From the NCBI GenBank assembly GCA_024699605.1, contig JAILPJ010000058.1, positions 1 to 60,379 of the forward strand: a DNA stretch of 60,379 bases, in the 5' to 3' direction. Below are positions 9,916-46,843 of this stretch, piece after piece (positions within the stretch are counted from its first letter, which is position 1; each line of letters begins with the position of its first letter). The notes under the pieces are model-generated. The model was not told the origin of the DNA and did not search any database. It saw only the letters and a list, made by a program, of their open reading frames with translations. A program made the position numbers and the translations under genes. The stretch comes from Desulfovibrio sp. (GTDB lineage Bacteria; Desulfobacterota; Desulfovibrionia; Desulfovibrionales; Desulfovibrionaceae).

Positions 9916-9981
9916 CGGCTCTCCCAGACGGCCAATGGCTATGGTACGCAGCTTTGCGCTCTTCACCAACCTAGGAAACTT

Positions 9982-10031
9982 GAGACAGCGCTTCCTCCCT
10001 GCCGTCACAGGGCCTGTACGCTGAAAGACTG
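9982..10031 (+). promoter_or_regulatory. Hairpin leader between GAGA and the fadD start (looped-out RBS, copy A)
   Basis: GAGA (9982-9985) is followed by stem P1 cagcg (9986-9990) / cgctg (10019-10023). Inside it is stem P2 ccctg (9997-10001) / caggg (10008-10012). Eight bases without a Shine-Dalgarno then lead to the ATG. Raw distance is 46 nt; with the stem looped out it is 8. This copy has the weakest purine tract. Confidence 0.45.
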
Positions 10032-11741
10032 ATGAATACAGATTTTCCCCGCCCGTGGCTTAAACAGTATCCCGATTTCGTGCAGAAAGAAGCTCTTGAA
10101 CGCTGGGATACCTCTCTTGCCGCTCTGCTGGATAGGGCAGCCGAAGAAAGTCCAGAGCGTTGCGCCATCATCTACGAAAAAACGCAGATTTCCTATGCGG
10201 CGTTGCGTGAAAAAGCGGAACAGTTTGCGGCCTCGCTCCAGAAGCTGGGCTTCAAGCAGGGTGATCGCGTGGCGATCATGCTCCCCAATCTGCCGCAGAT
10301 GATCATTGCCTTCTGGGGTGTGGTCAAAGCCGGTGGTGTTATGGTAATGATGAATCCTCTCTACAAAGAGAAGGAAATCATCGCCAATCTCACTGATGCC
10401 GGTGCTGAATATATTGTTCTCCAGGATCTGCTCTGGCCCAGAATTGATGCCTTGCGCACCAAACTGCCTCTGCATACCTATATTGTGACCAATCAGGACG
10501 ACTGCGTAGCCTTTACGCGCAGGCTCCTGCAGAAATTCACCAAAAAAAGCCCGACCATGGCCGAGCCTGTGCCCTGCGACGGCAAGCAGATCTTTTCCTG
10601 GTCGCAGTTTTTTGCTCTGGATCACGACTATTTCCCCCCCAACGGCATTACTGGCGACACGCCACTGCTTTTGCAATACACCGGGGGAACTACGGGCACT
10701 TCCAAGGGCGTGATTTTAACGCATGGCAATATGGGCACCAATGCCATGCAAATCAGGCAGTTTTTCAATCTCTCGGCCAAAGATCAGCACATTTTTCTTG
10801 ACATTCTGCCTTTTTTTCATGTTTATGGCCTGAGTCTTGGCCTGATTCAGCCTGTGGCAACAGCCGCCACAGCCTTGCCCCTGCCACGTTTTGACCCGCG
10901 CGAAACACTGCAGACCATTGCCGCCTACAGACCGACAATTTTTCCCAGCGCTCCAGCCATCTATATTTCCCTGCTGAAGCAAAAAGAACTGGCCAATTAC
11001 GACCTGAAAAGCATCCGCATCTGCATGTCAGGCTCAGCGCCACTGCCGCAGGAACTCTTTAAACGCTTCCAGGAAATCACAGGCGCCTCCATTCTGGAAG
11101 GCTACGGGCTGACGGAAGCCTCGCCTGTGACGCACTTCATACCGCTGGGCGCTGAAGGGACAAGGGAACGCTCCATTGGGCTGCCCCTGCCCGGTACCGA
11201 TGCCCGCATCGTGGATATGGACGCCGGCGCGCTGACCCTTGAACCCGGGAAACGCGGCGAGTTGGTCATTAGGGGCCCCCAGGTCATGCAGGGCTATCTC
11301 AACAATCCCGATGAGACGGCCAGCGCACTGCGCAATGGCTGGCTCTACACCGGCGACATTGCCATGATGGATGAAGATGGCTATTTTTATATCGTCGATC
11401 GCAAAAAGGATATGGCCATTGTCGGCGGCTACAATGTCTTTCCCCGTGAAGTGGACGAAGTGCTCATGGAGCATCCGAAAATCCACGAAGCGGTCTGTGT
11501 GGGCTTACGAGACGATGTCCGCGGCGAAGTACTGAAGGCCTATATCGTTCCCAAAGCCGGTGAAACACTGACCAAGAGTGAAATTGTGGGCTTCTGCCGC
11601 AGCAAGCTGGCCTCCTACAAGGTTCCACGTCAGATCGAATTTCGGCAAGAACTGCCCAGGTCCATCGTTGGCAAAATTTTACGCCGTTATTTGCGCGACG
11701 AGGAAGAAATGGCCAAAAAACAGTCAGGCCCTGAGGCCTAG
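10032..11741 (+). CDS. fadD: Long-chain fatty acid--CoA ligase
   Basis: The 569-residue AMP-forming ligase has LLQYTGGTTGTSKGVILTHG near residue 215 (P-loop), YGLTEASPVTH, GWLYTGDIAMMDEDGYFY with the ribose-binding Asp, DRKKDMAIVGGYNVFPREVDE, and GKILRRYLRDE with the catalytic Lys near the C-terminus. It activates fatty acids as acyl-CoA via acyl-adenylate at the inner membrane face. The start ATG has no adjacent Shine-Dalgarno and depends on the structured leader. It lies 117 bp after ispDF and 129 bp before the STAS gene. Confidence 0.92.
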   Translation: MNTDFPRPWLKQYPDFVQKEALERWDTSLAALLDRAAEESPERCAIIYEKTQISYAALREKAEQFAASLQKLGFKQGDRVAIMLPNLPQMIIAFWGVVKAGGVMVMMNPLYKEKEIIANLTDAGAEYIVLQDLLWPRIDALRTKLPLHTYIVTNQDDCVAFTRRLLQKFTKKSPTMAEPVPCDGKQIFSWSQFFALDHDYFPPNGITGDTPLLLQYTGGTTGTSKGVILTHGNMGTNAMQIRQFFNLSAKDQHIFLDILPFFHVYGLSLGLIQPVATAATALPLPRFDPRETLQTIAAYRPTIFPSAPAIYISLLKQKELANYDLKSIRICMSGSAPLPQELFKRFQEITGASILEGYGLTEASPVTHFIPLGAEGTRERSIGLPLPGTDARIVDMDAGALTLEPGKRGELVIRGPQVMQGYLNNPDETASALRNGWLYTGDIAMMDEDGYFYIVDRKKDMAIVGGYNVFPREVDEVLMEHPKIHEAVCVGLRDDVRGEVLKAYIVPKAGETLTKSEIVGFCRSKLASYKVPRQIEFRQELPRSIVGKILRRYLRDEEEMAKKQSGPEA

Positions 11742-11870
11742 AGCGATTTGGACTTGCTTGCAAAAAAATGCAGAGCGTTTGGCAAACATTTTGCTGCCTT
11801 TTCTTCACGTCAGAGTGCCAGAGACCGCTGACCGCATCAGAACGAATTCAAGTGTCCGCACGAGGAAACA

Positions 11871-12224
11871 ATGTTTGCCATTGAAAGTGAAATCTCAGGA
11901 GCCATGCTCATCCTCCATGTCACAGGCGATATTCTTTTGCCCGTGGCCCTCAACTTTGAAGAAGAGATCAACCATCAGGTCTACGCGAAAAAATTGCCTG
12001 AAGTGATCATCGATTTAAGCGAGGTTGGCCGCATGGACAATGCGGCGCTTGGCGTTTTGGTCACCCTGAGCACGCTCTACAGTAAACAAGGCAGACGCCT
12101 TTTTCTCTTCCACCCAGCCAAACACATTGAGGCCTTAATCAAGGAAATCGGCATCGAAAAATTTTTTCCCATCTTCGAAAACTACGAAGAACTGAACAAT
12201 CACAGCTTGAGCGACACGGACTGA
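11871..12224 (+). CDS. STAS-domain protein lacking the phosphorylatable serine
   Basis: The 117-residue single STAS domain is of anti-sigma-factor-antagonist type. IIDLSEVGRMDNAALGVLV matches the DLSxxxxxDSSGLGVL loop, but the serine normally phosphorylated by an RsbW/SpoIIAB-type kinase is replaced (DNAALG). It may therefore be constitutively active or work without that switch (inferred). GAGGAAAC precedes the ATG. The FapA-like gene follows by 47 bp, with a T-run between them. Confidence 0.8.
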   Translation: MFAIESEISGAMLILHVTGDILLPVALNFEEEINHQVYAKKLPEVIIDLSEVGRMDNAALGVLVTLSTLYSKQGRRLFLFHPAKHIEALIKEIGIEKFFPIFENYEELNNHSLSDTD

Positions 12225-12271
12225 GTTTCGCCAAAACGTTTTTTTTTCCTTCTCTTTGAGGAGAACGGATC

Positions 12272-13417
12272 TTGCGCTACTATCTGCAACATTTCTTTGA
12301 TCCAGATTTTGATCACACCAATCGCAAACCCGATGAAAATGCGATCAGAAAGAACACCCTGGATCTTTTTAATCTGGGCTATGTCCAGAATGTCATCAAG
12401 GGGCAAATCTTGGCACAGATTGTCCCGCTTGACTCTTTGGCGCAAAGACCGGACCCCCGCTTCATTCTGGATGCCGTTGATTTTCCCGCCGGCCAGAACA
12501 CCTATATTGATCCAGAATACCCGCAGTATCTGCTTGCGGCCTCCAATGGCTATGTCTTTTACAATGAGGGACGCATTACGGTGAAGTCCCTGCTCAATGT
12601 CCGCCAGGACGTGAGTTTTCACACCGGCAATATCAATTTTGTCGGGGACATGGCCATCCACGGCGCCATCCGTTCAGGCTTTTCCATTCTCGGCAACAAT
12701 GTCCGCATTTCCGGCGTCGTGGAAGGAGGCATTGCCCACTCCGCGAGCAATATGCTGGTCGACGGCGGCGTTCGAGGCAATACCAGTGATCATTGCCTGG
12801 TGGACTCAGGCGGCAAGCTGATGATCAATTTTCTGGAAAAAGCCGAAGCCCGGGCGCGCGGCAATATCGTCATCAACAAGTACTGCCTCTATTCCACGGT
12901 CTATGCCGGCAACAATATGCTCGTCAAAGAGCAGCTCTACGGCGGCACGATCAATGTCTTTTCCAGCATCTATGTGGGCAAGCAACTGGGCAATAAGGCC
13001 GGCATTCCCACCTCGGTCTTCATTGGTTACGATCCTCTGATTATCAGGCGCATGGAAAAGCAAGAGGCCTTCATTTCCACCCTGACCCAGTCCATCACCC
13101 ATTTAAAGGCGATTACCAAGGACCTGCCTCCCGAGGCCAACGACGCCACCATCAAGCTGCAACAGCTCATGCAGCAGCGCGCCAACATCATTGCCCAACG
13201 CCGCGCCTACGCCAAAAAGCTCTTTGACGACGAGCACACCATCAATGCCTGCCGCCTGATTGTGCCAGGCATTGTCTATCCTGGCGTGGAAATCTCCATT
13301 GGCAAATTCTTCCGTCCCATTGAAAAGCCCTACGAAAACGTGGTCTTCCATCTGCAGGACAGTGAAATCGTGTCGGGCCCCATCAGCAGCGCGCAACCCA
13401 CGCTCAACAGGGGTTAA
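12272..13417 (+). CDS. FapA/DUF342-like protein
   Basis: The 381-residue product starts at a TTG supported by GAGGAG. Residues 130-260 form a beta-helix-like run typical of DUF342/FapA proteins (VSFHTGNINFVGDMAIHGAI, GNNVRISGVVEGG, ASNMLVDGGVRGN). A helical stretch with an EANDATIKLQQLMQQR-type coiled coil follows near 290. The C-terminal strand end PGIVYPGVEISIG is characteristic. Role is unclear; relatives occur near motility and cell-polarity genes. It is followed after 6 bp by a glycosyltransferase gene, in one likely transcript. Confidence 0.8.
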   Translation: MRYYLQHFFDPDFDHTNRKPDENAIRKNTLDLFNLGYVQNVIKGQILAQIVPLDSLAQRPDPRFILDAVDFPAGQNTYIDPEYPQYLLAASNGYVFYNEGRITVKSLLNVRQDVSFHTGNINFVGDMAIHGAIRSGFSILGNNVRISGVVEGGIAHSASNMLVDGGVRGNTSDHCLVDSGGKLMINFLEKAEARARGNIVINKYCLYSTVYAGNNMLVKEQLYGGTINVFSSIYVGKQLGNKAGIPTSVFIGYDPLIIRRMEKQEAFISTLTQSITHLKAITKDLPPEANDATIKLQQLMQQRANIIAQRRAYAKKLFDDEHTINACRLIVPGIVYPGVEISIGKFFRPIEKPYENVVFHLQDSEIVSGPISSAQPTLNRG

Positions 13418-13423
13418 GCGCTC

Positions 13424-15109
13424 TTGTTTGCCTTTGCAGCCATATCTGGGCCGGATGGAAGCCTTGTCGACATCAAGGTCACAGGCCCAAAGTCCTTTTT
13501 AGCCCTTGGCCGGGGCGGACCCCTGCGCGAGACAAGTGCTCTCAGCGCGCTCCCAAAAGACGACTCTTGCCTTCCCGTTTTTCTGGGTGCGGGCCTTGGC
13601 TTTGCCCTTGCGGAATTTGTCCAACGCTATCCTGGCCCTTTTGCCGTTGTTGAAAAAGAACACGAACTGCAAAAGCTCACACACGCTCTCGCCAAACTCT
13701 CCCCCAAGGACCGGGAAAGACTGCTTTTCCTCGACGATCCCAATCCGCAAAAGGTCCTGGTTGCGCTCACACGCTGGCAGGGCCAGCATCAGGGCCTGCG
13801 ACTGTTACCCATCCCTCTCCCCTTCTATCAACGCCTGGATGCCGACTACTACGGCTTTTTGCGCAAAGAACTGGAAGCCAGTGCCCGCTTCGACTTCTGG
13901 GCGCGCGCCATTACCCCACGTTTCCAATCTGCCAGTCCGCGTGTTCTTTTGATCACGAGCAAATACTTTCTCATGGGGGAAATCCTGCGCGCCTGCCAAA
14001 AAATGGGGCTTGCGCACGAACTGATCACCATTGGCGATGAAAGCGTAGGCCAAGAGGAATTTGTGCAAAAGGTGCTGCGCTCGGTTGTGACCTTCAAGCC
14101 GGATTTCTGCCTGACGCTCAACCATATGGGCGTAGACCGAGAAGGGGTTCTGATTGACCTTTTGACCCGCCTGCAACTGCCACTGGCATCCTGGTTTGTG
14201 GACAATCCCCACCTGATCATTCATCTCTACACACGCTGTATCAGCCCCTGGACCTGTCTTTTCACCTGGGACTTTGACAATGTTGCCAGTCTCAAGGCGC
14301 TCGGCTTTCCCCACGTCTCCTATCTGCCCCTGGGCACCGATACGGACCGCTTCCGCCCCAATGTTGGCCACGCCCCTGCCGAATGGAAATCTCGCCTTTC
14401 CTTTGTGGGCAATTCCATGCTCTTCAAGGTCGGCGGCAGACTGAAAAGTGCGCACTTTCCCAAAGAGATGACCTTGGCCTTTCAGAAGGTAGCCCGCGCC
14501 TTTATCCATTCCAATCAGCGTTCCGTGCGCGATTTTCTGGCCAGCGATTTTCCAGAGATCTCAGCGCGCTACGAGACCCTGGCCGACAATGAAGCCAAGC
14601 TCGCCTATGAAACCGCCATCACCTGGCAGGCCACACGCCTCTACCGCAACGCCCTTGTGGCCAGGCTTTTGCCCTTTCATCCCACCATCGCCGGCGACGC
14701 CGGCTGGCGCATAGAATTTCGCAAGGCCAGTGAAAAGCCGCGTTTTTTGCCTGAGCTGAACTATTATACAGAACTGCCCATCTTCTATACCTGCCAGGAC
14801 ATTTCCTTCAATTGTACCAGTCAGCAGATGAAGGGGGCGGTCAACCAACGCGTTTTCGACTGTCCGGCCTCCGGAGGCTTTGTGCTCACAGACTGGCGCG
14901 AACAGCTGGAAGATCTCTTCACGCCCAAGGAAATGGTCTGCTACCGTGAGGCTGACGAAATTCCCGACCTTGTGCGTTACTATCTGGCACACGCAAAAGA
15001 GCGTCAACGTTTTGCCCAAAACGCCCGCAAACGCGTCCTGGCCTGTCACACCTGGACGCACAGACTGCAAAGCCTGCTGGCAACCATGCGCGAGGTCTAC
15101 GCGGCATGA
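13424..15109 (+). CDS. CgeB-like glycosyltransferase (DUF3880 type)
   Basis: The 561-residue product starts at TTG with AGGGG 10 nt upstream. The middle ([46 protein letters not shown]) and the C-terminal part ([33 protein letters not shown]) match CgeB/DUF3880-type transferases. These use nucleotide sugars and occur in flagellin or surface glycosylation loci. A 160-residue N-terminal extension is not recognised. The next gene starts inside its stop (ATGA). A parallel gene lies at 20769. Flagellin as target is inferred from adjacency to fliK. Confidence 0.8.
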
Positions 15110-16503: not shown

Positions 16504-16555
16504 CCTGGCCACTTTGGTACGCTCCTTGAATACTTCCCGGGCAAAGGAGTCTGCC

Positions 16556-18472: not shown

Positions 18473-18486
18473 AGACGGAGTTCTCT

Positions 18487-19356: not shown

Positions 19357-19392
19357 AAAAAGGGGGGGGGATCATCCCCCCCCTTTTTTTTT
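19354..19392 (+). terminator. Rho-independent terminator after flgD
   Basis: The hairpin pairs aaaaaaagggggggggg with cccccccccttttttt around a five-base loop, ending in a T-run. It begins in the flgD stop codon and closely resembles the terminator at 3191-3231. Confidence 0.9.
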
Positions 19393-20738: not shown

Positions 20739-20768
20739 TCATAGGCCAATTGTCAGGAGAAATGAGAT

Positions 20769-28427: not shown

Positions 28428-28477
28428 GGAGGCAGCGTTTCCGCCCCCATGCGGGGGAATGCACGCTGAAAGAATTC
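28428..28477 (+). promoter_or_regulatory. Hairpin between Shine-Dalgarno and cpoB start (looped-out RBS, copy B)
   Basis: GGAGG (28428-28432) directly abuts stem P1 cagcgt (28433-28438) / acgctg (28463-28468). Inside is P2 ccccc (28444-28448) / ggggg (28453-28457). Nine bases then lead to the ATG. Raw SD-to-ATG gap is 45 nt; with the hairpin removed it is 9. Confidence 0.6.
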
Positions 28478-29470
28478 ATGAAAGCTCTTCTACCGTGTCT
28501 GCTCAGCCTGGCACTGCTCGCCGGATGCGCCGCCCGTGATCGGGAAAACGACCGACAGAATAAACTCTGGAGCCAAAACGAACAACGCCTGAAGCTTTTG
28601 GAAAGCAATATCACAGCCCTCAATGAGCAGGTTTCCCTGCTCAACAATCGCGTCTATGAAGTCCGCAACGCCAAAGGCCGCAAAACCGGCATGACGGTTG
28701 TGCCGGTGGTGCCTGTGCCTCAAGCCAGTATCCCGCAAGCGACTGCCCCTGAAAAGCCCTTAACGCCGCACCCAAAGACGCAGACGCCTCCCAAGCAGGA
28801 GGCTAAGACTCCTCAAAAGCCCACACGCGCGCAAGCGGAAGCTCTACCTGCACCAAAACCCCAAAGGCAGGAAAAGCCTAAGGCCCCTCAAAGCCAGGCT
28901 CCGGCTCTGCCTCCTTTAGACAATGCGCCCTCCCAGGCCAATGATACGCCGGCTCTGCCACCCACTTTGCCGTTGGAAGGCTCATTCTCTCTGCCGCCGA
29001 CCCAAAGCCCTGATGCGCAAGCCCAGCAGCCGCTTTTGCCACCAGATACTGCCCAGCCGCAAGCCCAAGCTCCAAGTCCGCAACGAGCATCCTCTGCCAA
29101 GGCGCAAGCCGGTGAAGAGGCAAGCTACAAGCAGGCTCTCAAAGCTGTCCGCTCAGGCCATCCCCAAGAGGGTATGCAGAAATTCCGTGAATTCCTCAAT
29201 ACCTATCCCAATGGCAAATACGCGCCCAATGCCGAATTCTGGATCGGCGAATGTCTCTACGATCAGGGCAAGTACCAAGAGGCCCTGGATCAATACGCCA
29301 CCGTGGGCAGCAAGTATCCCAAGCATCACAAAAACGCCGATGCCCTGTTAAAGAGCGGCATGAGCTACAAGCGTCTTGGCGATAGCGCCAAGTCCAAGGA
29401 AAGCTACAATCGCCTGCTCAAAGAGTTTCCCAACTCTGAGGCGGCCCGACGTGCCCGCGGCAGCAGATAA
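28478..29470 (+). CDS. cpoB: CpoB/YbgF-like lipoprotein with TPR domain
   Basis: The 330-residue product has a lipoprotein signal ending LALLAGC (Cys17). An N-terminal coiled coil (residues 30-65, RLKLLESNITALNEQVSLL) would trimerise it. A long Pro/Ala/Gln-rich linker spans 85-225, and C-terminal TPR repeats follow (KFREFLNTYPNGKYAPNAEF, YQEALDQYATVGSKYPKHHK). CpoB links Tol-Pal to cell-wall synthesis during division in the periplasm. The ATG has no adjacent Shine-Dalgarno. The linker is longer than usual. Tol genes are not in the window. Confidence 0.88.
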   Translation: MKALLPCLLSLALLAGCAARDRENDRQNKLWSQNEQRLKLLESNITALNEQVSLLNNRVYEVRNAKGRKTGMTVVPVVPVPQASIPQATAPEKPLTPHPKTQTPPKQEAKTPQKPTRAQAEALPAPKPQRQEKPKAPQSQAPALPPLDNAPSQANDTPALPPTLPLEGSFSLPPTQSPDAQAQQPLLPPDTAQPQAQAPSPQRASSAKAQAGEEASYKQALKAVRSGHPQEGMQKFREFLNTYPNGKYAPNAEFWIGECLYDQGKYQEALDQYATVGSKYPKHHKNADALLKSGMSYKRLGDSAKSKESYNRLLKEFPNSEAARRARGSR

Positions 29471-30913: not shown

Positions 30914-30948
30914 AAGGAGACAGCGGTCCCTTGCGTCCGCCCCAAATC
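30914..30948 (+). promoter_or_regulatory. Hairpin between Shine-Dalgarno and rnc start (looped-out RBS, copy E)
   Basis: AAGGAG (30914-30919), then gcgg (30923-30926) / ccgc (30937-30940), then eight bases and the ATG. Raw gap is 29 nt; without the hairpin it is 11. It begins GGAGACAGCG, close to the fadD copy. The alternative is that translation starts at the TTG at 30931, 11 nt after the Shine-Dalgarno. Confidence 0.4.
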
Positions 30949-31695
30949 ATGAACACACAAGAAAACACAGATCACGTCGCTGAACGCGAGGCGAAGATTT
31001 CCGCCCTGGAACAGACCATCGGCCATCACTTTACGGCACGCCAATTCCTCGAGCTGGCCTTAACCCACAGTTCGTATGCCAATGAACGGGAGAGCGCCTG
31101 CGAGCACAACGAACGCCTGGAATTTTTGGGCGATGCGGTGCTCGAGCTCTGTATTTCCGATCTGCTCTTTCATCGCTATCCCGACGTGCGTGAAGGCGCT
31201 CTGACCAAGATGCGCTCGCAGCTTGTGAGTACCACAAACCTTGCCAAAATGGCCAAAAACCTTGGGCTTGACTGGCTGTTGAAACTTGGACGGGGCGAAG
31301 AACTGCAGGGAGGCAGAAAACGGGAATCGGTCTTAAGCGACACCTTTGAAGCGGTGCTCGCGGCGGTTTATCAGGATGGAGGCTTTGTGGCGGCGGGCAG
31401 GATGGTGGAAAAGGTCTTTGCCAACGATCTTTGCGCTGTGCCCAATCAAGGCACACACAAAGACAATAAGACCTTATTGCAGGAAGTCGTTCAGCAGCGC
31501 TTTAAGGCCATGCCGATCTACAATCTCACAAAAACCAGCGGACCCGAGCATGCCAGGACCTTTGTGATTGAGCTGCTGCTTCCCGATGGACGTTCTTTCA
31601 CAGCCCAGGGCTCAAGCTATAAAAAAGCCCAACAAAAAGCAGCGGAACTGGCCTTGCGGAAACTTGGCGATGAAGAGGCAGAAACCGAGAATTGA
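30949..31695 (+). CDS. rnc: Ribonuclease III
   Basis: The 248-residue product has the RNase III signature HNERLEFLGDAVLEL near residue 50 with the catalytic Asp/Glu, SDTFEAVLAAVYQDGG near 128, and a C-terminal dsRNA-binding domain (DNKTLLQEVVQQRF, QGSSYKKAQQKAAELALRKL). It cleaves double-stranded RNA, including rRNA precursors and sense-antisense pairs. The ATG at 30949 is preferred for the typical N-terminus; an in-frame TTG at 30931 would add six residues. Confidence 0.92.
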   Translation: MNTQENTDHVAEREAKISALEQTIGHHFTARQFLELALTHSSYANERESACEHNERLEFLGDAVLELCISDLLFHRYPDVREGALTKMRSQLVSTTNLAKMAKNLGLDWLLKLGRGEELQGGRKRESVLSDTFEAVLAAVYQDGGFVAAGRMVEKVFANDLCAVPNQGTHKDNKTLLQEVVQQRFKAMPIYNLTKTSGPEHARTFVIELLLPDGRSFTAQGSSYKKAQQKAAELALRKLGDEEAETEN

Positions 31696-31699
31696 GCCC

Positions 31700-31765: not shown

Positions 31766-32656
31766 CTAGCCGATGAGTTGCATGGCCATCTGCGGCAGGC
31801 TATTGGCCTGCGAGAGCATGGCCACAGCGGACTGGGTAAGAATTTGATTGCGGACAAAATTGGTCATTTCTGTTGCCACGTCCACATCGGAAATTCTTGA
31901 CTCGGCGGCCTGCAGGTTTTCTGCCTGCGTGGTCAGATTGGTGATGGTGTTTTCCAGACGGTTCTGCATGGCGCCGATATGGGCGCGGATCTTGTCCTTG
32001 GAGACAATGGCATTGGTTAGGCCCACAAGGGCTCGTTGTGCTTCTTGCTGTGTGGATACGGTATAGCCAGCTGAGCCGACTTTTGCCTGATTGCCCACAC
32101 CGAAGGCTGAGGCCGTACAGTTGCCGATCTGAATATAGTAGTAGTCTTCTGCGGAATCGTTGGCCGTGCCGAAGTGGATCTTCATCTTGCCGGTTGCCGT
32201 CAAATCCGAACCATTATGCGATGCCGAAGAAAGATTGCCATTCAAAAGATGGATGCCGTTAAAATCCGTGGCATTGGCGATTCGGGTGATTTCTGAGGCC
32301 ATCTGCTGATATTCGGATTCAATCATCAGACGCTGGGTTGAATCGTAGGTACCGGTGGCGGCCTGTTCGGCCAGCTCTTTCATACGAATGAGTTTTTCGT
32401 CGATGACCCCAAGCGCGCCGTCGGCGGTCTGAATCAGTGAAATGGCGTCATTGGCATTGCGGATGCCCTGATTCATGGTGGCAATATCCGAACGCATCAG
32501 CTCTCGGATAGCCAGTCCCGCTGCATCGTCTGCGCTTGAATTGATGCGCATGCCTGTGGATAAACGCTGTGTGGATGTAGCCAGTCTGCCGTAATGACTA
32601 TTCAGCGAATTGGCTATATTGCCTGCCATTAAATTGTGGTTAACGACCAAAGACAT
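31766..32656 (-). CDS. fliC: Flagellin
   Basis: The 296-residue product has both conserved flagellin ends. N-terminal: VNHNLMAGNIANSL, RLSTGMRINSSADDAAGLAI, NDAISLIQTADGAL. C-terminal: NRLENTITNLTTQAENLQAA, ESRISDVDVATEMTNFVRNQ, QANSLPQMAMQLIG. The variable centre is short, about 80 residues. It is exported by the flagellar type III system and forms the filament. GGAGGGAG precedes the ATG. A sigma-54-type promoter lies 41-57 bp upstream. It is a likely target of the glycosyltransferases near fliK. Confidence 0.96.
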   Translation of the reverse strand: MSLVVNHNLMAGNIANSLNSHYGRLATSTQRLSTGMRINSSADDAAGLAIRELMRSDIATMNQGIRNANDAISLIQTADGALGVIDEKLIRMKELAEQAATGTYDSTQRLMIESEYQQMASEITRIANATDFNGIHLLNGNLSSASHNGSDLTATGKMKIHFGTANDSAEDYYYIQIGNCTASAFGVGNQAKVGSAGYTVSTQQEAQRALVGLTNAIVSKDKIRAHIGAMQNRLENTITNLTTQAENLQAAESRISDVDVATEMTNFVRNQILTQSAVAMLSQANSLPQMAMQLIG

Positions 32657-35068: not shown

Positions 35069-35115
35069 GGAGGCGGCATTCCCCCGGTCACTCAGACCGG
35101 GCTTTGTGCCGAATA
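35069..35115 (+). promoter_or_regulatory. Hairpin between Shine-Dalgarno and ccsA-like start (looped-out RBS, copy F)
   Basis: GGAGG (35069-35073) abuts P1 cggca (35074-35078) / tgccg (35107-35111). Inside is perfect P2 cccggtc (35083-35089) / gaccggg (35095-35101). Then come 4 nt to the first ATG or 7 nt to the second. Raw gap is 42 nt. The stem bases differ from the fadD/cpoB/hemA copies while the shape is kept. Confidence 0.65.
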
Positions 35116-35946
35116 ATGATGATCTCGCATGCACTGACCACCTGGATCATTCTGCTCTTTCTTTTGGCTGCGACCCTGATCGGTCTTGGCGGCCTTTTGA
35201 CCAGAAAAAACACCCTGCAGACCACAGGCTGCGTTTCTGCGGCCATAGCCTTTTTGCTGCAGACAGCGAGCTTTTTCTTGGGTTTTCACAAGAGCTTTCA
35301 AGGCGGCCTGAGCGCAGGAGCCTATTTGCAGATCGTGGCCTGGTTTACCACCCTGGCAGGGCTCTTCTTCTGGCTGAAACTTAGGCAGCGCACAGCCCTG
35401 ACCTTTGCAGCCCCCCTCTGTGCGGCCCTGTTTGCCATGTCGCTACCCTATCTTGAACAGACCATTCTTCTGCCCCAGACGCTGCGCTCCTCCTTCTATG
35501 TTCTGCACATCGGCTTTCTCTTCACAAGCCTTGCCCTGATGGCCGTCGCCTTTATCGCAAGCAGCCTCTTTCTCTTTCTTGAACGCCGCATCAAAAGCAA
35601 ACAGCGCATCAAGGGCTTCATGCAGGACATGCCGGCTCTGTCGGTCTTTGACAGCATCAACAAAGTCTGCATTCTGGCCTGCTTTCCCCTCTACACCATT
35701 GGCATTCTCTCCGGTCTGCTCAGAAGCAAACCCGTCTACGGAGCGACCTTGAGCGGAGACCCCAAGGAGATTGTCAGCCTGATCATCTGGGCCCTCTTGG
35801 CCTTTGTCTTTCATAATCGCCTGGCAGCCTCTTGGACCGGGAAAAAGCCCGCCCTGACCATGATCTGCATCTTTCTGCTCAGCCTCTTTTCGCTGCTTGT
35901 GGTCAATACCCTGATGCCTTCTCACCACAGCTTTATGGGCAACTGA
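35116..35946 (+). CDS. CcsA/HemX-type cytochrome c assembly membrane protein
   Basis: The 276-residue product starts at ATG 35116 (35119 equally possible). Eight hydrophobic helices are predicted, with a conserved periplasmic-edge pattern including LRSSFYVLHIGFLFTSLALM (His in the family's heme-handling helix), FDSINKVCILACFPLYTIGI and IVSLIIWALLAFVFHNRL. The tryptophan-rich WWD loop of full CcsA/CcmC is not evident, so it is closer to HemX. It probably affects heme delivery or GluTR levels; its position between the siroheme gene and hemA supports a tetrapyrrole role. Confidence 0.8.
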   Translation: MMISHALTTWIILLFLLAATLIGLGGLLTRKNTLQTTGCVSAAIAFLLQTASFFLGFHKSFQGGLSAGAYLQIVAWFTTLAGLFFWLKLRQRTALTFAAPLCAALFAMSLPYLEQTILLPQTLRSSFYVLHIGFLFTSLALMAVAFIASSLFLFLERRIKSKQRIKGFMQDMPALSVFDSINKVCILACFPLYTIGILSGLLRSKPVYGATLSGDPKEIVSLIIWALLAFVFHNRLAASWTGKKPALTMICIFLLSLFSLLVVNTLMPSHHSFMGN

Positions 35947-35978
35947 AGCAAACCATCGAAACCTATTTCCAAACCATC

Positions 35979-36031
35979 GAGGCAGCGTTTCCTCCCCGTC
36001 TTTGGCGGGCTTTCCACGCTGAGAAGAGTTG
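35979..36031 (+). promoter_or_regulatory. Hairpin between Shine-Dalgarno and hemA start (looped-out RBS, copy C)
   Basis: GAGG (35979-35982) abuts P1 cagcgt (35983-35988) / acgctg (36016-36021), with P2 cccg (35995-35998) / cggg (36006-36009). Ten bases then lead to ATG 36032. Raw gap is 49 nt. A weak AAGAG after the stem is the only competing signal. Just upstream, aaaccatcga occurs twice. Confidence 0.55.
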
Positions 36032-37324
36032 ATGAATACGAGTATCTACCTTGTCGGCCTCAATCACCGCACGGCCAATGTTGACATACGCGAGCGCTTT
36101 GCCCTGGCCAATCAATGCAGCCAGCAATTGTGGGCCATTCCCTGTAGTGAAACGATCCGGGAAAACATCATTCTCTCCACCTGCAACCGCGTGGAAATTG
36201 TGGCCAGCGGTACGGAAGAGACAGTGGAAGAATTGCTCAAGACCTGGGCCATGGCCAGAAACGCGCCTGTGGAAGAGCTCAGGCCCTATGTCTATACCTA
36301 TGCGCACGACGAGGCCATCCGCCACCTCTTTCTTGTGGCTTCAAGCCTTGATTCCATGGTGGTGGGCGAGCCACAGATTTTGGGACAGCTGAAAAAAGCC
36401 TATAAACAGGCGGCTGCTGCCAAGAAAACCGGCCCCATCTTAAATCGCCTGCTGCACAAGGCCTTTTCTGTGGCCAAGCGCGTACGCACAGAGACCCAGG
36501 TCGCCTCCAATGCCGTCTCCATCAGCTATGCCGCCGTGGAACTGGCCAAACGCATTTTCGGCGATATGGCCAAACACAAGGCCATGCTCATTGGCGCAGG
36601 CGAAATGGCGGAACTGGCCGCAAGACACCTCTTGCACTTTGGCATTCAGGAACTCTTTGTGGCCAACAGAACCCTCAGCCGCGCCCAGGCACTGGCCGAG
36701 GAATTTTCCGCACACGCCATTCCCTTTGAGAGCATCAAGGAAACCCTGCCCAAGGTGGACATTATTATCACCTCCACAGGCTCCACCGACCCCATCATCC
36801 GTGCCCGCAACATCGCAGGCGTGTTGCGCGAACGCAAAAATCGCCCCATGTTTTTCATCGATATTGCCGTGCCCAGAGACGTGGATCCCGACGTCAATGC
36901 CATCGACAATGTCTATCTCTACGACATCGACGATCTCAAAGAGATTGTGGAAGAAAACCTCTCCGGCCGCCAGGACGAGGCGCGCAAAGCGCAGAAAATC
37001 GTTACCGACGAGGTGAGCAATTATCTCTCCTGGCTCAAAAGCCTTGAAGTGCAGCCGACCATCGTTGAGCTGATCGCCCGCCAGGAACGCATTGTGCGCG
37101 AGGAGATGGAACACAGCCTGCGCCATTGGGATGCCGCAAATCGTGCGCAGGGCGCAAAGGAAAATCTAAGCACAGCTGAACTGCAAAGTCTCCTTGAACC
37201 CATGCTCAAAGCCATTGTGCACAAAATCAACCACGAGCCTTTGATGTATCTCAAGGGCGAAAACACGCACCTTGGACAAATTGAACGCATCAATACCATC
37301 CGCAGCGTCTTTGGCCTCAAATAG
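36032..37324 (+). CDS. hemA: Glutamyl-tRNA reductase
   Basis: The 430-residue product has LNHRTANVDIRERFAL at the start, STCNRVEI with the catalytic Cys near residue 48, and SSLDSMVVGEPQILGQLKKA. The NADPH domain has LIGAGEMAELAARHL, and a C-terminal dimerisation helix follows. It makes glutamate-1-semialdehyde, the first committed step of tetrapyrroles by the C5 route. It follows the HemX/CcsA-like gene. The last 53 bp overlap tilS. Confidence 0.95.
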   Translation: MNTSIYLVGLNHRTANVDIRERFALANQCSQQLWAIPCSETIRENIILSTCNRVEIVASGTEETVEELLKTWAMARNAPVEELRPYVYTYAHDEAIRHLFLVASSLDSMVVGEPQILGQLKKAYKQAAAAKKTGPILNRLLHKAFSVAKRVRTETQVASNAVSISYAAVELAKRIFGDMAKHKAMLIGAGEMAELAARHLLHFGIQELFVANRTLSRAQALAEEFSAHAIPFESIKETLPKVDIIITSTGSTDPIIRARNIAGVLRERKNRPMFFIDIAVPRDVDPDVNAIDNVYLYDIDDLKEIVEENLSGRQDEARKAQKIVTDEVSNYLSWLKSLEVQPTIVELIARQERIVREEMEHSLRHWDAANRAQGAKENLSTAELQSLLEPMLKAIVHKINHEPLMYLKGENTHLGQIERINTIRSVFGLK

Positions 37325-41179: not shown

Positions 41180-41188
41180 AATCTGTCC

Positions 41189-41464
41189 TTAAAAGGGAAT
41201 GTCTTCCCTTGTGCTCGCCTTGTCTTGGCTTGGCTCGGCCTCAACGTTCAGGGGCTGTGCTTCCCCGTTCTGCCATTTCTGCAGCTGATGCCTGGCATTT
41301 TCAAGCATGCTCGCGCAATTCTGCGAGCAGAGCATGCCTTCACGGTAAAGCGCCATCCCCTTTTCCAGGGCCAGAGATTCGCTTTCCAGCTCCTGCACAA
41401 TGGCCTGCAGGCGAGAAAACTGCTTTTCAAAATTCTTGAATTCTGAATTCTTCACTTTTTCCAT
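41189..41464 (-). CDS. xseB: Exodeoxyribonuclease VII small subunit
   Basis: The 91-residue product has the family core FKNFEKQFSRLQAIVQELES and LALEKGMALYREGMLC, a helical hairpin that binds XseA. An unusually long C-terminal tail of about 25 residues (QNGEAQPLNVEAEPSQDKAS) follows. Its Shine-Dalgarno lies far upstream across a hairpin. Followed 9 bp later by ispA. Confidence 0.88.
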   Translation of the reverse strand: MEKVKNSEFKNFEKQFSRLQAIVQELESESLALEKGMALYREGMLCSQNCASMLENARHQLQKWQNGEAQPLNVEAEPSQDKASTREDIPF

Positions 41465-41496
41465 GGCGAAACGGCGCCAAAGCGCCTGCCTCCTTT
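41465..41496 (-). promoter_or_regulatory. Hairpin between Shine-Dalgarno and xseB start (looped-out RBS, copy G)
   Basis: On the minus strand: AAAGGAGG (41496-41489), two bases, perfect stem GGCGC-tttg-GCGCC (41486-41473), eight bases, ATG. Raw gap is 24 nt; 10 nt with the stem looped out. Confidence 0.6.
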
Positions 41497-41509
41497 GCTC
41501 AAGCTTGTG

Positions 41510-42952
41510 TTATCGCTTGCCCTCAAGCGCCCGAATCTCGGCAAGGAGACTTCCGTCAGAAAGTCTCAGCCTGATCATCTGGCCCGCTTTGACGCTTTTT
41601 AGAGAGCGCAAGAGCTCTCCTTCAAGATTTTCTACCAAGGCATAGCCACGCTCCAAAAGCACAAGAGGACTTGCGCCCTGAAGCTGAGCCTGCCATTTTT
41701 CAAGCTCAGCCTGTCGCCCCTCAAGTCTGCGCAGCATCACTTGCCAAAGCGTTTCTTCGAGGCGCTCAAGGGTCTGTGTCTGCTCTGTGAGACGACTTTG
41801 CAAAAGATAGCCAAGACGCTCGGAGAGTCTGGCAACCTGGGCCAATGTGCCATCGAGCTTTTCCGGCGTCATTTGCCTCTGCAGGCGGCGCGAGAGCTCT
41901 GAGAGAGCCTGTTCTTTGGCCTGCAAAAAGGCCTGCCAGCGTGTCTGAAAGCTGTGCCGGCAATGCGCCAGACGCTCTTCGAAAACGGCAAGCTTGTGTT
42001 TGGGCGAGGCCAAAGCCAGAGCGCGCTCTTCGTGCTTAAGGCGCACGCCAAGGCCTGAGAGATAGTTTTCACAGGCAAGCAGCAGACGGGCTTTTTGCGC
42101 TTCGACATTGCTGAGCAGTTCCGAGCGTGGCTGCCAGAGGAGCTCTGCCGCATGGGTTGGCGTTGCCGCCCGCAAATCGCAGGTCAGATCCGCCAGCGTG
42201 ACATCAATTTCATGGCCAATGCCCGCCAGCACAGGCAGTGTGGAATGATAGACCGCATCAGCCACTTCCTGCTCATTGAAGCACCAGAGATCTTCTAAGG
42301 AGCCTCCGCCGCGGATCAAAACGATCACTTCCGCCCAGTTCTGCGCACAGGCAAGGGCGATGGCTCGTGCTATGGCACTGGCCGCTTCTTTGCCCTGGAC
42401 AAGGGTTGGGAAAAGACGGATCTGCGAGGAAAGACCGCGATCCTTGGCAATCTTCAGAAAATCACGGATGGCCGCCCCCTGCTCCGACGTGATCAGGGCA
42501 ATACGGCTGGGATTTTGCGGAATGGGGCGTTTGCGCTTGGCATCAAAATAGCCCAGCCTCGCCAGCTCCTCTTTTCTGGCTTGAAAAGCCTGGGCCAGGG
42601 CACCGGCACCGGAACAGACGACATTTTCCACAATCAGCTGACAGGTGCCGCGCTGGGGATAAAACGAAAGGCGGCCGCAGCAGATAAACTCGCCGCCTTT
42701 TTCCATGATCTCGCGTGTGATGCGGGGATAGACCTCGCCTGTGGTCAAATTGTAATTGACACGCCTGTGGGCCGCAAACCAGGCACAGCTCAACTGGGCA
42801 TGGGCGTCTTTCAGCGTAAAATACATATGGCCGCTGTTCATTTCCTTGACGCCCGAGACCTCGCCTCTGATCCAGATCAGGGGAAAGGTCGTCTCAAGTT
42901 TCTGCTTGAGTTGCGCGGTTATCTCGGAAACCGAATAAACGGCATTTTGCAC
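41510..42952 (-). CDS. xseA: Exodeoxyribonuclease VII large subunit
   Basis: The 480-residue product has an N-terminal OB-fold (FPLIWIRGEVSGVKEMNSGH, YFTLKDAHAQLSCAWF). The catalytic core has SEQGAAIRDFLKI, VIVLIRGGGSLEDLWCFNEQ and ALPVLAGIGHEIDVTLADL-type metal-binding residues, then a long coiled coil at 280-420. It degrades single-stranded DNA with XseB. GGAG lies 14 nt before the ATG, rather far. It sits 45 bp upstream of xseB. Confidence 0.94.
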   Translation of the reverse strand: MQNAVYSVSEITAQLKQKLETTFPLIWIRGEVSGVKEMNSGHMYFTLKDAHAQLSCAWFAAHRRVNYNLTTGEVYPRITREIMEKGGEFICCGRLSFYPQRGTCQLIVENVVCSGAGALAQAFQARKEELARLGYFDAKRKRPIPQNPSRIALITSEQGAAIRDFLKIAKDRGLSSQIRLFPTLVQGKEAASAIARAIALACAQNWAEVIVLIRGGGSLEDLWCFNEQEVADAVYHSTLPVLAGIGHEIDVTLADLTCDLRAATPTHAAELLWQPRSELLSNVEAQKARLLLACENYLSGLGVRLKHEERALALASPKHKLAVFEERLAHCRHSFQTRWQAFLQAKEQALSELSRRLQRQMTPEKLDGTLAQVARLSERLGYLLQSRLTEQTQTLERLEETLWQVMLRRLEGRQAELEKWQAQLQGASPLVLLERGYALVENLEGELLRSLKSVKAGQMIRLRLSDGSLLAEIRALEGKR

Positions 42953-42969
42953 AAAGATTCTCCGGCTCG

Positions 42970-44697
42970 TTACTGGCTCTTAGCCATGACCTTGTCCTGC
43001 CAGGCAGAAAAGGCTTCGGCAAAGCCCTCCAGGGGCAGCTCGCATTTTTCACGGCTTGCGCGCTCTGTGGCTTCCACCACACCGCGGGCCAGACTTTTGC
43101 CGCCAAGCACAAGCTGCATGGGAATCCCCAAGAGGTCGGCGTCCTTGAATTTGACGCCTGGGCGTTCGTTCCTGTCATCCAAGAGCACGTCCACGCCCAT
43201 ACTCTTTAAATGCTGATAGAGCCATTCCACCTTGGCACACACTTCAGGATTTTTCAGATCAAGGTTGATCAGAATACACGAAAACGGCGCAATCTGCCAA
43301 GGGAAGACGATGCCAGCCTCGTCATGGTTCTGTTCAATGGCCGCTGCCGCAATGCGTGAAATGCCAATGCCGTAGCAGCCCATGATCATGGTTGTCTCAA
43401 CGCCCTGCTCATTGAGCACGGTGGCATGCATGGCCTGGCTGTATTTCGTGCCAAGCATGAAAATATGGCCGACCTCAATGCCGCGGGTCAGAGAAATCTG
43501 GCCTCCACAACGCGGGCAGGGGTCAGATTCTAAGATTGTTCGCAAATCCGCATAGGCGGAAATCTTTGTATCCCGGTCAAGATCAATGTGAATGAGATGG
43601 GTGTCCGCGCAATTGCCACCCACCACATAGTCATTGCCCAAACGCAGGCTATTATCGGCATAGATGGGGATCTCAAGGCCACACGGTCCTGCAAAACCCA
43701 AGGGCGCATGGGTCACACGTTCAACCACGTCCTGACTGGCCAGTTCCACCTGGCTGGCTTTGAGATAGCGGCCAAGCTTGACGTCATTGACCTCGTGGTC
43801 GCCGCGCACAAGTACCGCTACGGCTTTTCCATCCACGACAAAGATCATGGTTTTGACAATCTTGTCGTGTGTCACGCCAAGGAGCGAGGCCACCTCTTCC
43901 ACCGTATGTGCCTTGGGAGTGGCCACAGATTCCAAAGCCTGACAGGGCGTTTTGGCTGCCGCTTCCTGATAGACAACATCGGCCCGCTCCACATTGGCGG
44001 CAAAGTCGCAGTCGTGACAATAGGCAATGGTGTCTTCGCCGGAATCAGCCAGAACCATAAATTCATGGGAGAAATTGCCGCCGATGGAACCTGTGTCGGC
44101 TTCCACAGCCCGAAATTTCAAGCCGAGACGCGTAAAAATACGGGTATAGCACTCGTGCATGATGCGGTAGCTTTCCTGGGCCTGTGGCAGATCCGCATCG
44201 TAGGAATACGCATCCTTCATAATGAATTCACGCCCGCGCATCAGACCAAAACGCGGACGCATCTCGTCACGAAACTTGGTGTGCAGCTGATAGAGCCGCA
44301 AAGGAAGCTGTCTGTAGGATTTGATCTCACCGCGCACCAGATCGGTCATGACCTCCTCATGGGTCGGTCCAAGGCAATAATCGCGCTCATTGCGATCCTT
44401 GAAACGCAAAAGCTCCTTGCCGTAATGCTCCCAGCGCCCGGTTTCACGCCACAGATCAGCTGGCTGTACCATGGGCAGAAGGACTTCCTGAAAGCCTGCC
44501 CGGTCCATTTCCTCGCGCACAATGGCGGAGATTTTTTTCAGGACCCGCAGACCAAGGGGCAGATAGGTATAGAGGCCACTGGTCAGTTTTCTGATCATGC
44601 CGGCCCGAAGCAGCAGTTTATGACTGATGACCTCGGCTTCAGCCGGGCTCTCCTTAAGGGTGGGAATATACAGAGAGGAAAATCGCATGCACTCCAA
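42970..44697 (-). CDS. proS: Prolyl-tRNA synthetase (bacterial type)
   Basis: The 575-residue class II synthetase has motif 2 ([20 protein letters not shown]) and motif 3 ([16 protein letters not shown]). The YbaK-like editing domain is inserted at 235-385 ([32 protein letters not shown]), and the anticodon domain with [20 protein letters not shown] follows. The insertion marks the bacterial rather than archaeal/eukaryotic form. GGAG precedes the ATG. A long open frame antisense to it is a shadow. Confidence 0.95.
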
Positions 44698-44721
44698 TCC
44701 TTTCCTTCAGTAGGCTACAAG

Positions 44722-45825
44722 CTAGCGTTCGCTTTGGCTCTGCTTTTCAGCGAGCAGAGCCGAAAGTTCTTCCATAAAGGCCGTGAGCAGGGCATCATGG
44801 CCGCGCACCGTACGAATCACCCGGCCTTTACGAAAAATCAGGCCCTTATCACGACCGCCGGCAAGGCCGATATCCGCTTCTCGGGCTTCACCTGGTCCAT
44901 TGACCACACAGCCCATCACAGCCACGCTGATATCGGCCGTGGATTCCGCCAGACGGGCCTCCACAGCACGGGCCAGGCCAAAGAGATCGATTTCCGTGCG
45001 GCCGCAGGTGGGACAGGAAATGATTTCTGGTCCACGCTTGCGCAGGCCCAAGGCCCGCAAAATTTCATAGGCTACGGTCACCTCTTCCGCGGGATCAGCG
45101 GTGAGCGAAACCCGCAGGGTGTCCCCAATGCCTTCGGCAAGCAAAAGTCCAAGCCCCACAGAGGATTTGACGGTTCCGCGGATCAAGCCGCCGGCCTCAG
45201 TTACGCCGATATGCAGGGGATAGTCACAGCGTTGGGCCAAAAGCCGGTAGGCGCAAACGGTATTGCCCACAGAAGAGGATTTCAGAGAAATTTTTGTCTC
45301 ATAAAAACCGCGTGACTCAAGAATACGCACATGCGCAAGCGCACTTTCGACCATGGCCTCAGGGGTGGGTCCGCCATAGCGGGCAAGCAGAGCCTTCTCC
45401 ACTGAGCCGGAATTAACACCGATGCGGATGACGCAGTGATGGGCTTTGGCACAGTCAACGACGCGCGCCACACGATCGGCTGAGCCAATATTGCCGGGAT
45501 TGATCCGTAAGCCTTCAAGGCCCGCTTCCATGGCCATGATCGCCAGACGGTAATCAAAATGAATGTCAGCGATCAAAGGCAGGGTTGTGCCAGCACGCAA
45601 GGCCGGAAGCGCATGCGCTGCCTGCTCATCGGGCACAGCCACGCGTACCGCCTCACAGCCGCGGGCCTCAAGGCGTCTAATCTGCGCCAGGGTCGCTTCA
45701 GGATCGCGCGTATCGGTATTGGTCATGCTCTGCACAACACAGGCTGCCCCGCCACCAATGACCAGGCTTCCCAGGTGGATCGCGCGTGATGGACGGCAAG
45801 GCCTGATGAAGGAGGCGTTTGACAC
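44722..45825 (-). CDS. ispG: 4-hydroxy-3-methylbut-2-enyl diphosphate synthase
   Basis: The 367-residue product starts at GTG 45825, chosen for CGGAG seven bases before it and because homologs begin just before the IHLGSLVIGGGAACVVQSMT motif. The longer frame to 45990 has no conserved sequence. ISCPTCGRTEIDL with the first two cluster cysteines and VMGCVVNGPGEAREADIGLAGG with the third mark the [4Fe-4S] reductase. It performs the penultimate step of the MEP pathway. It heads the minus-strand operon ispG-proS-xseA-xseB-ispA-dxs. Confidence 0.95.
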   Translation of the reverse strand: MSNASFIRPCRPSRAIHLGSLVIGGGAACVVQSMTNTDTRDPEATLAQIRRLEARGCEAVRVAVPDEQAAHALPALRAGTTLPLIADIHFDYRLAIMAMEAGLEGLRINPGNIGSADRVARVVDCAKAHHCVIRIGVNSGSVEKALLARYGGPTPEAMVESALAHVRILESRGFYETKISLKSSSVGNTVCAYRLLAQRCDYPLHIGVTEAGGLIRGTVKSSVGLGLLLAEGIGDTLRVSLTADPAEEVTVAYEILRALGLRKRGPEIISCPTCGRTEIDLFGLARAVEARLAESTADISVAVMGCVVNGPGEAREADIGLAGGRDKGLIFRKGRVIRTVRGHDALLTAFMEELSALLAEKQSQSER

Positions 45826-46121
45826 AGAAGAACTCCGTTTGCTGACCAACAAATGCCCAAGGCAATGGCAATAAAAAAACGGGAGAAATATACGCCAAAC
45901 GACATTTCCCCACAAGCCAGAGACGCCCGCAAAAAATTCCGTCCTTCCGCTTTTGCCAGGCCCTTCTAGACATAGGAACATATTTTGCATATTTTTCTAA
46001 GGTCACGTGTCCACACACGTACACTGCCAGCTCTTGCCGGCCCTGGCCAAAAGCTGCCAAGCTCGGCGGCAAAAGTTACCTGGGAAAAAACCAACAGCAT
46101 CTGAAGCTTGATGAGGCAGCT

Positions 46122-46787
46122 ATGTGCAAAAAACTCCTCTTTTCCGTTTTTTTGATCGTCTCTCTGATCTTCAGCGTTGCCTGCTCTAAGCGTGGTACGC
46201 CTCAGGATCCTCGGTATATTGATGCTGTGGAAATCAAACTCAAATGCCGGGAACTTGCCGATCAATTGCTGGCCACAATGCCCAATCAGGCCCTTGACGG
46301 CGTGGTGGCCATGCCCACCTCCTTTGTGGATCAGAACAATACTGAGCGTTCTTCCCAGCTGGGTCGACTGATTGCCGAGACGCTCTTCTACGAATTCAAT
46401 CAGCGCGGCTTTCCCACGCGAGAATATCGCCTGACTGGCAATATCACGGTTCGAGGCGCCCGTGACAATCTTGTGCTCATTCCCAGTGCCAGTATCCGCA
46501 GCAATCAGAGTTGGGCCAGCATCTTACTTGGCACCTATCTCGTGGACCGCGATGCCACCTTTATCAATGCGCGCCTGGTACGGGGCAAGGACGGTCTTGT
46601 GCAGCGCACAGGCCAGCTTGTCCTGGTCAATACGCCCATCATCCAGCGTCTTGGGGAACCCGACAAATACGTTTATCGGCCTGTTCCCAATGCCACAAGC
46701 GCCCCCAAACGCCATCCCCTTGATGGCCTCTACACGCCAATGCAGGCCGTTGGCACAGGCACCATCCCCATTGTTCAGCAACGTTAA
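46122..46787 (+). CDS. FlgO-like outer-membrane lipoprotein
   Basis: The 221-residue product has a signal peptide ending near Cys21 (SLIFSVACSKRG), probably a lipoprotein. The FlgO-type domain spans 40-190: VVAMPTSFVDQNNTERSSQL, GRLIAETLFYEFNQRGFPTR, then SWASILLGTYLVDRDATFIN. FlgO proteins are needed for normal outer-membrane passage of flagella in Vibrio. GAGG precedes the ATG. It is first in a three-gene set of exported proteins. Confidence 0.75.
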   Translation: MCKKLLFSVFLIVSLIFSVACSKRGTPQDPRYIDAVEIKLKCRELADQLLATMPNQALDGVVAMPTSFVDQNNTERSSQLGRLIAETLFYEFNQRGFPTREYRLTGNITVRGARDNLVLIPSASIRSNQSWASILLGTYLVDRDATFINARLVRGKDGLVQRTGQLVLVNTPIIQRLGEPDKYVYRPVPNATSAPKRHPLDGLYTPMQAVGTGTIPIVQQR

Positions 46788-46790
46788 CAC

Positions 46791-46843
46791 GGAGGCAGCG
46801 ATTTCTTCCGGTTGTCCCGGGTAAAAAACGCTGAAAAAAGTTC
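46791..46843 (+). promoter_or_regulatory. Hairpin between Shine-Dalgarno and next start (looped-out RBS, copy D)
   Basis: GGAGG (46791-46795) abuts P1 cagcg (46796-46800) / cgctg (46829-46833). Inside is P2 ccgg (46808-46811) / ccgg (46816-46819). Ten A-rich bases then lead to ATG 46844. Raw gap is 48 nt. Confidence 0.6.

Follow-up and report, generated by a model that had tools for sequence, protein, structure and literature searches.

The question raised by this locus is how genes are translated when a hairpin separates their purine tract from the start codon. The window analyzed here is the whole 60,379-nt stretch of contig JAILPJ010000058.1 of Desulfovibrio sp. (assembly GCA_024699605.1). 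It belongs to a 2.76-Mb gut Desulfovibrio genome, referred to as the own genome (G000); the genomes of relatives are designated G199, G200, etc., and individual loci carry L numbers. The original prediction placed a purine tract and a hairpin before the start codon of seven genes of this window, and by sequence inspection all seven leaders were located as described. Five of them were matched by R1, a covariance model built from 20 copies of one repeat family. In our judgment it is likely that the leaders are copies of a small mobile DNA unit that, once transcribed, provides an entire split ribosome-binding site. The seven leaders are as follows:

9981..10027, + strand: family copy before a fadD-like gene; GAGA and the CAGCG..CGCTG two-tier hairpin, ATG at 10032, 8 nt past the stem (R1 33.0 bits, E 5.5e-5)
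28428..28472, + strand: family copy before cpoB; GGAGG and hairpin, ATG at 28478 (R1 54.1 bits, E 2.2e-10)
30914..30948, + strand: rnc leader; AAGGAG and a short GCGG/CCGC hairpin, ATG at 30949 (read from sequence only)
35069..35115, + strand: family copy before a ccsA-like gene; GGAGG and CGGCA/TGCCG, ATG at 35116 or 35119 (R1 26.8 bits, E 0.0023)
35978..36025, + strand: family copy before hemA, a lineage-specific gain; ATG at 36032 (R1 58.5 bits, E 1.5e-11)
41465..41495, - strand: xseB leader; AAGGAGG and a short GGCGC/GCGCC hairpin, ATG at 41464 (seen in the letters alone)
46791..46837, + strand: family copy before the FlgO-cluster gene; ATG at 46844 (R1 47.9 bits, E 8.3e-9)

The gap between the 3′ end of the outer stem and the start codon was 8 nt in fadD, 9 in cpoB, 8 in rnc, 10 in hemA, 8 in xseB and 10 in the FlgO-cluster gene, and 4 or 7 nt in ccsA, depending on which ATG is used. 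These values agree with the looped-out spacings originally given for the five family members, and for rnc and xseB the present count gave 8 nt each, where 11 and 10 had been given. The stems had been described as differing between genes, i.e., as independent and unrelated hairpins, and this part of the prediction did not hold: the outer stem CAGCG/CGCTG is common to fadD, cpoB, hemA and the FlgO-cluster gene, which share the frame G[G]AGGCAGCGTTTCC...CGCTGA (with the variant GAGACAGCGCTTCC in fadD), and ccsA carries its compensated form, CGGCA/TGCCG. Thus, five of the seven leaders are members of a single dispersed repeat family. When the window was searched with R1, no match was found at the rnc and xseB leaders, which are degenerate relatives or chance-level hairpins; in G199 and G200 a short hairpin of other sequence precedes rnc and a short hairpin is also present before xseB (both by eye).

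The family is far more frequent than chance would allow. The pattern GAGGCAGCGN{5,35}CGCTGA had 67 matches in the own genome and none in the reversed control. A shorter pattern, CAGCGN{5,35}CGCTGA, had 7 matches in the window, only four of which are the leaders, vs 1.95 expected, and 2 of 100 shuffles reached 7. With R1, at least 120 matches at E≤1 were obtained in the own genome, 116 of them with E<0.02, from the 150 of 1613 candidates that were scored; of the 120, five were not extracted and one was the antisense reading of another copy, so that 114 copies were analyzed. A sequence-blind scan of 192 candidate ATGs gave 18 bridged rows vs 5.1 ± 2.3 in 100 shuffles (maximum 11), in the window plus four stretches that had been chosen for holding copies, and hence with a bias towards the family; its rules for open reading frames (ORFs) missed fadD, cpoB and the FlgO-cluster gene. 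Thirteen of the 18 rows were family copies (ccsA twice) and only five lay outside the family, so that bridging outside it is at chance level, and the notion that leaders of any sequence are generally bridged was rejected. No Rfam model reached its gathering threshold in the window, and none of the matches at E≤1 in four loci overlapped the family element.

The copies share a defined layout: GGAGG, a two-tier hairpin with the outer stem C[A/G]GCG…CGC[T/C]G, a 5x5 pyrimidine loop and a fast-changing inner stem, and then, usually after 8-10 nt, ATGA. A reading frame was counted when it began at most 22 nt downstream and either had 60 or more codons or ran off the stretch; 111 of the 114 own copies opened one, 110 with ATG and one with GTG, and three opened none. 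The start was located 8-10 nt past the outer stem in 94 of these 111, and the median linear distance from GGAGG to the start was 50 nt. A SD (Shine-Dalgarno)-like tetramer at positions -17 to -4 was found in only 4 of 108 element genes vs 14 of 19 other, hand-picked, ATG ORFs of the window. The unit is about 75 nt long, and a GGAAAAACAAC-like stretch is conserved upstream of the copies; farther up most copies share little. In the own genome, a CGGCG subfamily of about 115 nt has a common second hairpin about 40-60 nt upstream; considering copies of all kinds, an inverted repeat of at least 7 bp is present at this place in 12 of 113, vs 2.9 expected. On the Vibrio alfacsensis plasmid pSEA1 (L476:2460-2485), an upstream hairpin GCCGTCT..AGACGGC stands where the CGGCG subfamily has CGTCTGATC..GATCAGACG. 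At one locus (L299, contig C24 of the own genome) tandem copies, C24:4842-4892 and C24:4925-4975, precede a single gene; the outer one is degenerate (16.9 bits) and has its own ATGAA followed by no long frame.

The pairing of the hairpin is conserved while its sequence changes. In 116 distinct rows, 92.3% of the cells pair vs 32-39% when the partners are slid, and 112 cells carry double changes vs 35 in shuffles. The values for 90 copies, many of them from other genomes, were 94.8% vs 24-38% and 103 vs 31. Both counts use alignments fitted to the model, and chimeras were therefore made as an independent check. The inner stem is strongly divergent between orthologous genes of the own species, G199 and G200, and in 25 of 31 comparisons the native hairpins were more stable than chimeras joining one half from each of two species (mean -18.5 vs -14.8 kcal/mol, Wilcoxon p 2e-5); as some sites enter with two species, the 31 (23 from sampled orthologous sites and 8 others) are not entirely independent. 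Since the compared copies occupy one orthologous site, the pressure for pairing acts in place, which favours a role in the mRNA over recognition of single-stranded DNA by a transposase. The compensatory changes anticipated for relatives are thus present, and the claim that a bridged SD is reused before core genes, with its pairing preserved, is supported. Given that a closer SD is rare, that pairing is conserved and that natives beat chimeras, it is very probable that ribosomes bind at the upstream GGAGG and that the hairpin bridges the gap to the start codon, as in phage T4 genes 38 and 25.

Comparison with the relatives indicated both shared and gained copies. Copies are shared at cpoB (occupied in G199 and G200, with an altered inner stem), ccsA and the FlgO-cluster gene (orthologous copies in G199 and G200), and at one gene of contig C24. 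In a sample of 55 sites of G199 and G200, six of which could not be parsed, 23 of 49 corresponded to an own-genome gene that also has a copy (11 of 22 in G199 and 12 of 27 in G200). At hemA and four other genes no copy was seen in the relatives. At hemA the flanking DNA, 78-79% identical, is interrupted exactly at the leader, the own genome is about 76 nt longer than G199, and the G199 leader is a direct GAGG-7 nt-ATG; R1 found no match in the hemA leader of 80 relatives' loci, some of them with little upstream DNA. The gained stretch of about 76 nt includes its own GAGG, and a unit consisting of CAGCG..CGCTG alone, inserted after a native SD, was hence rejected. Gained copies also precede an epimerase-like gene and its divergent neighbour, where the intergenic region is 467 nt vs 259 and 217 in the relatives, and two more genes have copies that were not seen in the relatives (by eye, 130 nt upstream). 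At ispH, the own species has a copy, G200 a degenerate one (by eye), and G199 is hairpin-free with GAGG-5 nt-ATG, as though the hairpin had been lost and a functional site had remained.

The top score in G213 is shared by six copies, whose 51 nt recur ahead of different sequences. Of nine copies inspected, eight in G213 and one in G209, eight are preceded by one common upstream tract; a solo copy without this tract (L256) is followed by a presumably HxlR-like gene. The start of a TnpB-like gene lies beside the copy, on the opposite strand, at six G213 places, and in G031, which belongs to another genus, the sole significant copy and the start of a divergent TnpB, in a 422-codon open frame, are some 45 nt apart. 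A blastn search with the copy of a phage contig matched plasmids and contigs of phage collections, and 8 of the 16 matches were inspected. In Allomeiothermus silvanus pMESIL02 and Thioalkalivibrio pTK9001 an annotated TnpB is directly divergent from the copy; in Allomeiothermus a conjugation gene begins at the 7th base after the match. In Methylovirgula a hydrogenase-related gene with a GTG start begins at the 10th base, and in Vibrio an annotated start lies close to the copy without coinciding with its end. Two faecal contigs labelled as phage (L480, MT838307.1, and L481, MT835856.1) have nearly the same unit and a similar upstream hairpin before different frames, and may be host DNA carrying a copy family of its own.

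The hairpin adjoining tnpA/tnpB that characterizes elements of the insertion sequence families IS200/IS605 was thus found in G213, G031, Thioalkalivibrio and Allomeiothermus and not at the copies of the own genome. A fixed border motif was found: RTGA directly follows the unit in 100 of 111 own copies, and ATGA or GTGA in all eight inspected plasmid and phage-collection loci; A at +4 occurs in only 5 of 19 other ATG genes of the window. Unlike a conventional element of this type, the copies of the window are without transposase or TnpB, and the end bears an outward-facing ribosome site.

The following mechanism would reconcile these observations. The GGAGG would act as SD, the two-tier hairpin downstream of it would fold and be looped out, and the start codon would then lie 8-10 nt beyond the stem, i.e., at a normal working distance. 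The unit would be the RTGA-adjacent hairpin end that stands beside the TnpB genes of IS200/IS605-type elements; upon insertion beside an ATGA start it would supply its own ribosome site, so that the gene survives. Copies at start codons would be retained for long, and selection at the mRNA level would maintain their pairing. The bridged ribosome site best accounts for the leaders and the transposon end best accounts for their spread, for which transposition is the best reading. A fuller version, which we hold to be about as probable as its negation, is that an RTGA-adjacent transposon end works as a portable split ribosome site that inserts at start codons while the hit gene is still translated, that this harmless landing enabled its spread through Desulfovibrionaceae, another family of the phylum, Gammaproteobacteria, Alphaproteobacteria and Deinococcota, and that in some genomes it was domesticated at about 1 gene in 20 (111 inspected copies, assuming about 1 gene per kb), including genes usually held essential.

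Several observations weigh against this proposal. The frames after eight of the G213/G209 copies are of 3 (G209), 20, 37, 48, 52, 106, 383 and 442 codons; four G213 copies and the G209 copy hence precede frames of only 3-52 codons, and the unit therefore does not always serve a gene. Hairpins on Pseudomonas and Cupriavidus plasmids are without GGAGG. The TnpBs are only 26-33% alike where they can be aligned, and the 68-residue piece from G213 can hardly be aligned, so that either the same hairpin is used by unrelated TnpBs or it was captured by TnpB units. No PF07282 (TnpB) match was found in the own genome, and the source element was therefore not seen there. Where copies were gained before hemA, the epimerase-like gene and the MNVVTK gene, the start in the nearest relatives reads ATGG or ATGT, whereas a pre-existing target would need ATGA; by eye, the insertion has no sharp border on its upstream side. 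With respect to the fold, in 6 of the 31 comparisons the chimeras were at least as stable as the natives, GGAGG was unpaired at a mean probability of only 0.40 in predicted ensembles, compared with 0.25 when the hairpin was shuffled, and the outer stem exceeded a probability of 0.5 in 82 of 108 predicted folds. The weakest points of the proposal are the direction, transposon end first and leader second, the base at +4 in the relatives at gained sites, and the missing TnpB of the own genome.

The reverse direction, in which the leader is old and native to these bacteria and was captured by IS200/IS605-type elements as their end, is the most serious competitor, although we regard it as doubtful. 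The high copy number and the shared orthologous sites in the mainly rumen Desulfovibrio group, together with the lack of TnpB in the own genome, speak for it, as does a hairpin common to unrelated TnpBs. It is harder to reconcile with TnpB-linked copies on plasmids of Deinococcota and Gammaproteobacteria (the chromosomes of those lineages were not searched for leaders), and with RTGA adjoining even those copies that precede no gene. That the family is a plain repeat without translational role, similar to a REP (repetitive extragenic palindromic) sequence or a MITE (miniature inverted-repeat transposable element), so that genes are translated despite it by leaderless transcripts or weak direct initiation, appears improbable. 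It is dispersed and palindromic, adjoins TnpB in some genomes and has some copies outside genes, and G199 and G200 showed no clear SD at two of the other gained sites; yet the position of nearly all own copies at ORF starts with a narrow spacing, the rarity of other SDs, the maintenance of pairing at orthologous copies while the inner stem changes, and the direct GAGG of unit-free relatives at hemA and ispH all argue for a role in initiation.

A regulated switch was also considered, in which the loop strand UUUCCUCC hides GGAGG, or a CsrA-like protein or a small RNA binds the loop, so that the family would be a global regulon. CsrA-like proteins bind ACGGA/ACAGGA motifs; the upstream consensus ACAGGAAAAACAAC contains ANGGA motifs, the SD is predicted to be partly paired, and UUUCCUCC is complementary to GGAGG and strongly conserved despite its first half being unpaired in the main fold. 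However, TnpB-linked copies also retain UUUCCUCC, in full in G031 and Thioalkalivibrio and in part in Allomeiothermus, which DNA recognition or descent could explain, and degenerate copies with little beyond the outer stem persist before genes. The genes downstream do not look like one regulon either. Genes identified by NCBIfam matches include tyrS, trpS, thrS, hisS, ileS and aspS (the tRNA ligases for tyrosine, tryptophan, threonine, histidine, isoleucine and aspartate), glyceraldehyde-3-phosphate dehydrogenase (GAPDH), phosphoglycerate kinase, Era, HslU, RuvB, IspH, IlvC, LeuB, aspartate kinase, alanine racemase (alr), lumazine synthase and signal peptidase I. The 20 named genes (aminoacyl-tRNA synthetases, glycolysis, amino-acid synthesis and others) have no common function; they were picked as recognisable and hence do not amount to a test for enrichment, and some of the proteins were cut pieces below the family cut-off. 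As for the control by temperature, protein or small RNA originally suggested, nothing pointing to a regulator turned up in the analysis, and we consider the switch unlikely, if slightly less so than the plain repeat.

A bridged ribosome site finds its closest precedent in phage T4, where, according to PMC3014915, structure shortens the SD-AUG spacing from 22 to 5 nt in gene 38 and from 27 to 11 nt in gene 25, and destabilising the structure lowers initiation. As in T4, the family has a distant SD, a structured gap with covariation, and a looped-out spacing within the working range; in contrast to the single phage genes, here one repeat family with a two-tier hairpin, a longer linear spacing and signs of mobility stands before more than 100 bacterial genes. 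REP sequences are imperfect palindromes preceded by a G[T/G]AG tetramer and present in many extragenic copies. The family resembles them in its GGAG, its hairpin and its copy number, but REPs are not known to sit at start codons. Ownership by a RAYT (REP-associated tyrosine transposase) was rejected: among 25 loci of Y1 transposases scanned with R1, none had a Y1 gene flanked by copies, and the only match (L279, in contig C111 of G199) lies just downstream of an IS200-type Y1 gene that, by eye, appears to have its own ends and looks like an unrelated IS200; the gene after this copy is presumably a lipoprotein, judging from its start. There was no R1 match within 1.5 kb of the intact Y1 gene of the own genome (L275), and a sub-threshold Y1 match of 35 residues (C48:31656-31760) was noted about 385 nt from the copy at C48:31221-31271. 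No such family was found in the titles and abstract openings searched, a coverage that leaves out most subscription journals.

If the proposal is correct, initiation across a looped-out hairpin would be a genome-scale strategy rather than a phage curiosity, and a mobile element would survive at start codons by carrying its own ribosome site. More than 100 natural matched leaders would be available for quantifying the bridging of structure by ribosomes, and these genes would be misjudged by gene finders and expression models whose view of the upstream region is limited to a few nt.

With R1 at E≤0.01, matches were found in 16 of 38 chosen genomes, mainly rumen Desulfovibrio relatives, and in none of the other 22, including Desulfovibrio piger ATCC 29098. 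The copies per genome were 97 (G199), 75 (G200 and G162, counted as one because the places of their copies are identical), 46, 45, 14, 12, 11, 10 and 7, with a single copy in six genomes. A draw from the family gave matches in 7 of 199 genomes (29 candidates per genome scored), and a draw from the phylum with model R2 in 6 of 395 (15 candidates per genome); with so few candidates and stricter filters, the zeros are compatible with divergent copies. In G588, from another family of the same phylum, all 15 scored candidates matched R2, and the 11 sites that were parsed all open ORFs, with the start 8-9 nt past the stem in ten and 3 nt in one. One G588 copy precedes a gene that we take, from the protein start, to encode ribosomal protein L15. 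Of the matches in G584 (three), G543 (one) and G277 (one), only that of G277 was parsed, before an 84-codon frame, and a match in G013 was discarded as dubious on inspection. About 90 nt upstream of a G588 copy, a weak full-length HEARO match (L392:1207-1412, 29.6 bits, cut-off 83, E 0.006) was noted and not used as evidence.

Pattern matches on viral contigs numbered 54. Two IMG/VR contigs of 72 and 34 kb (L420 and L430) carry full copies of more than 50 bits, followed by ORFs of 111 and 121 aa, L415 scored 31 bits, and the other 51, with at most 28 bits or none, were taken as coincidences, their encoded products not being examined. In the window itself, a minus-strand gene at 31766-32656 whose product starts with MSLVVNHN, presumably a flagellin, has many partial matches elsewhere in relatives, and its direct AGGAGG leader is conserved in G000, G199, G200 and G204.

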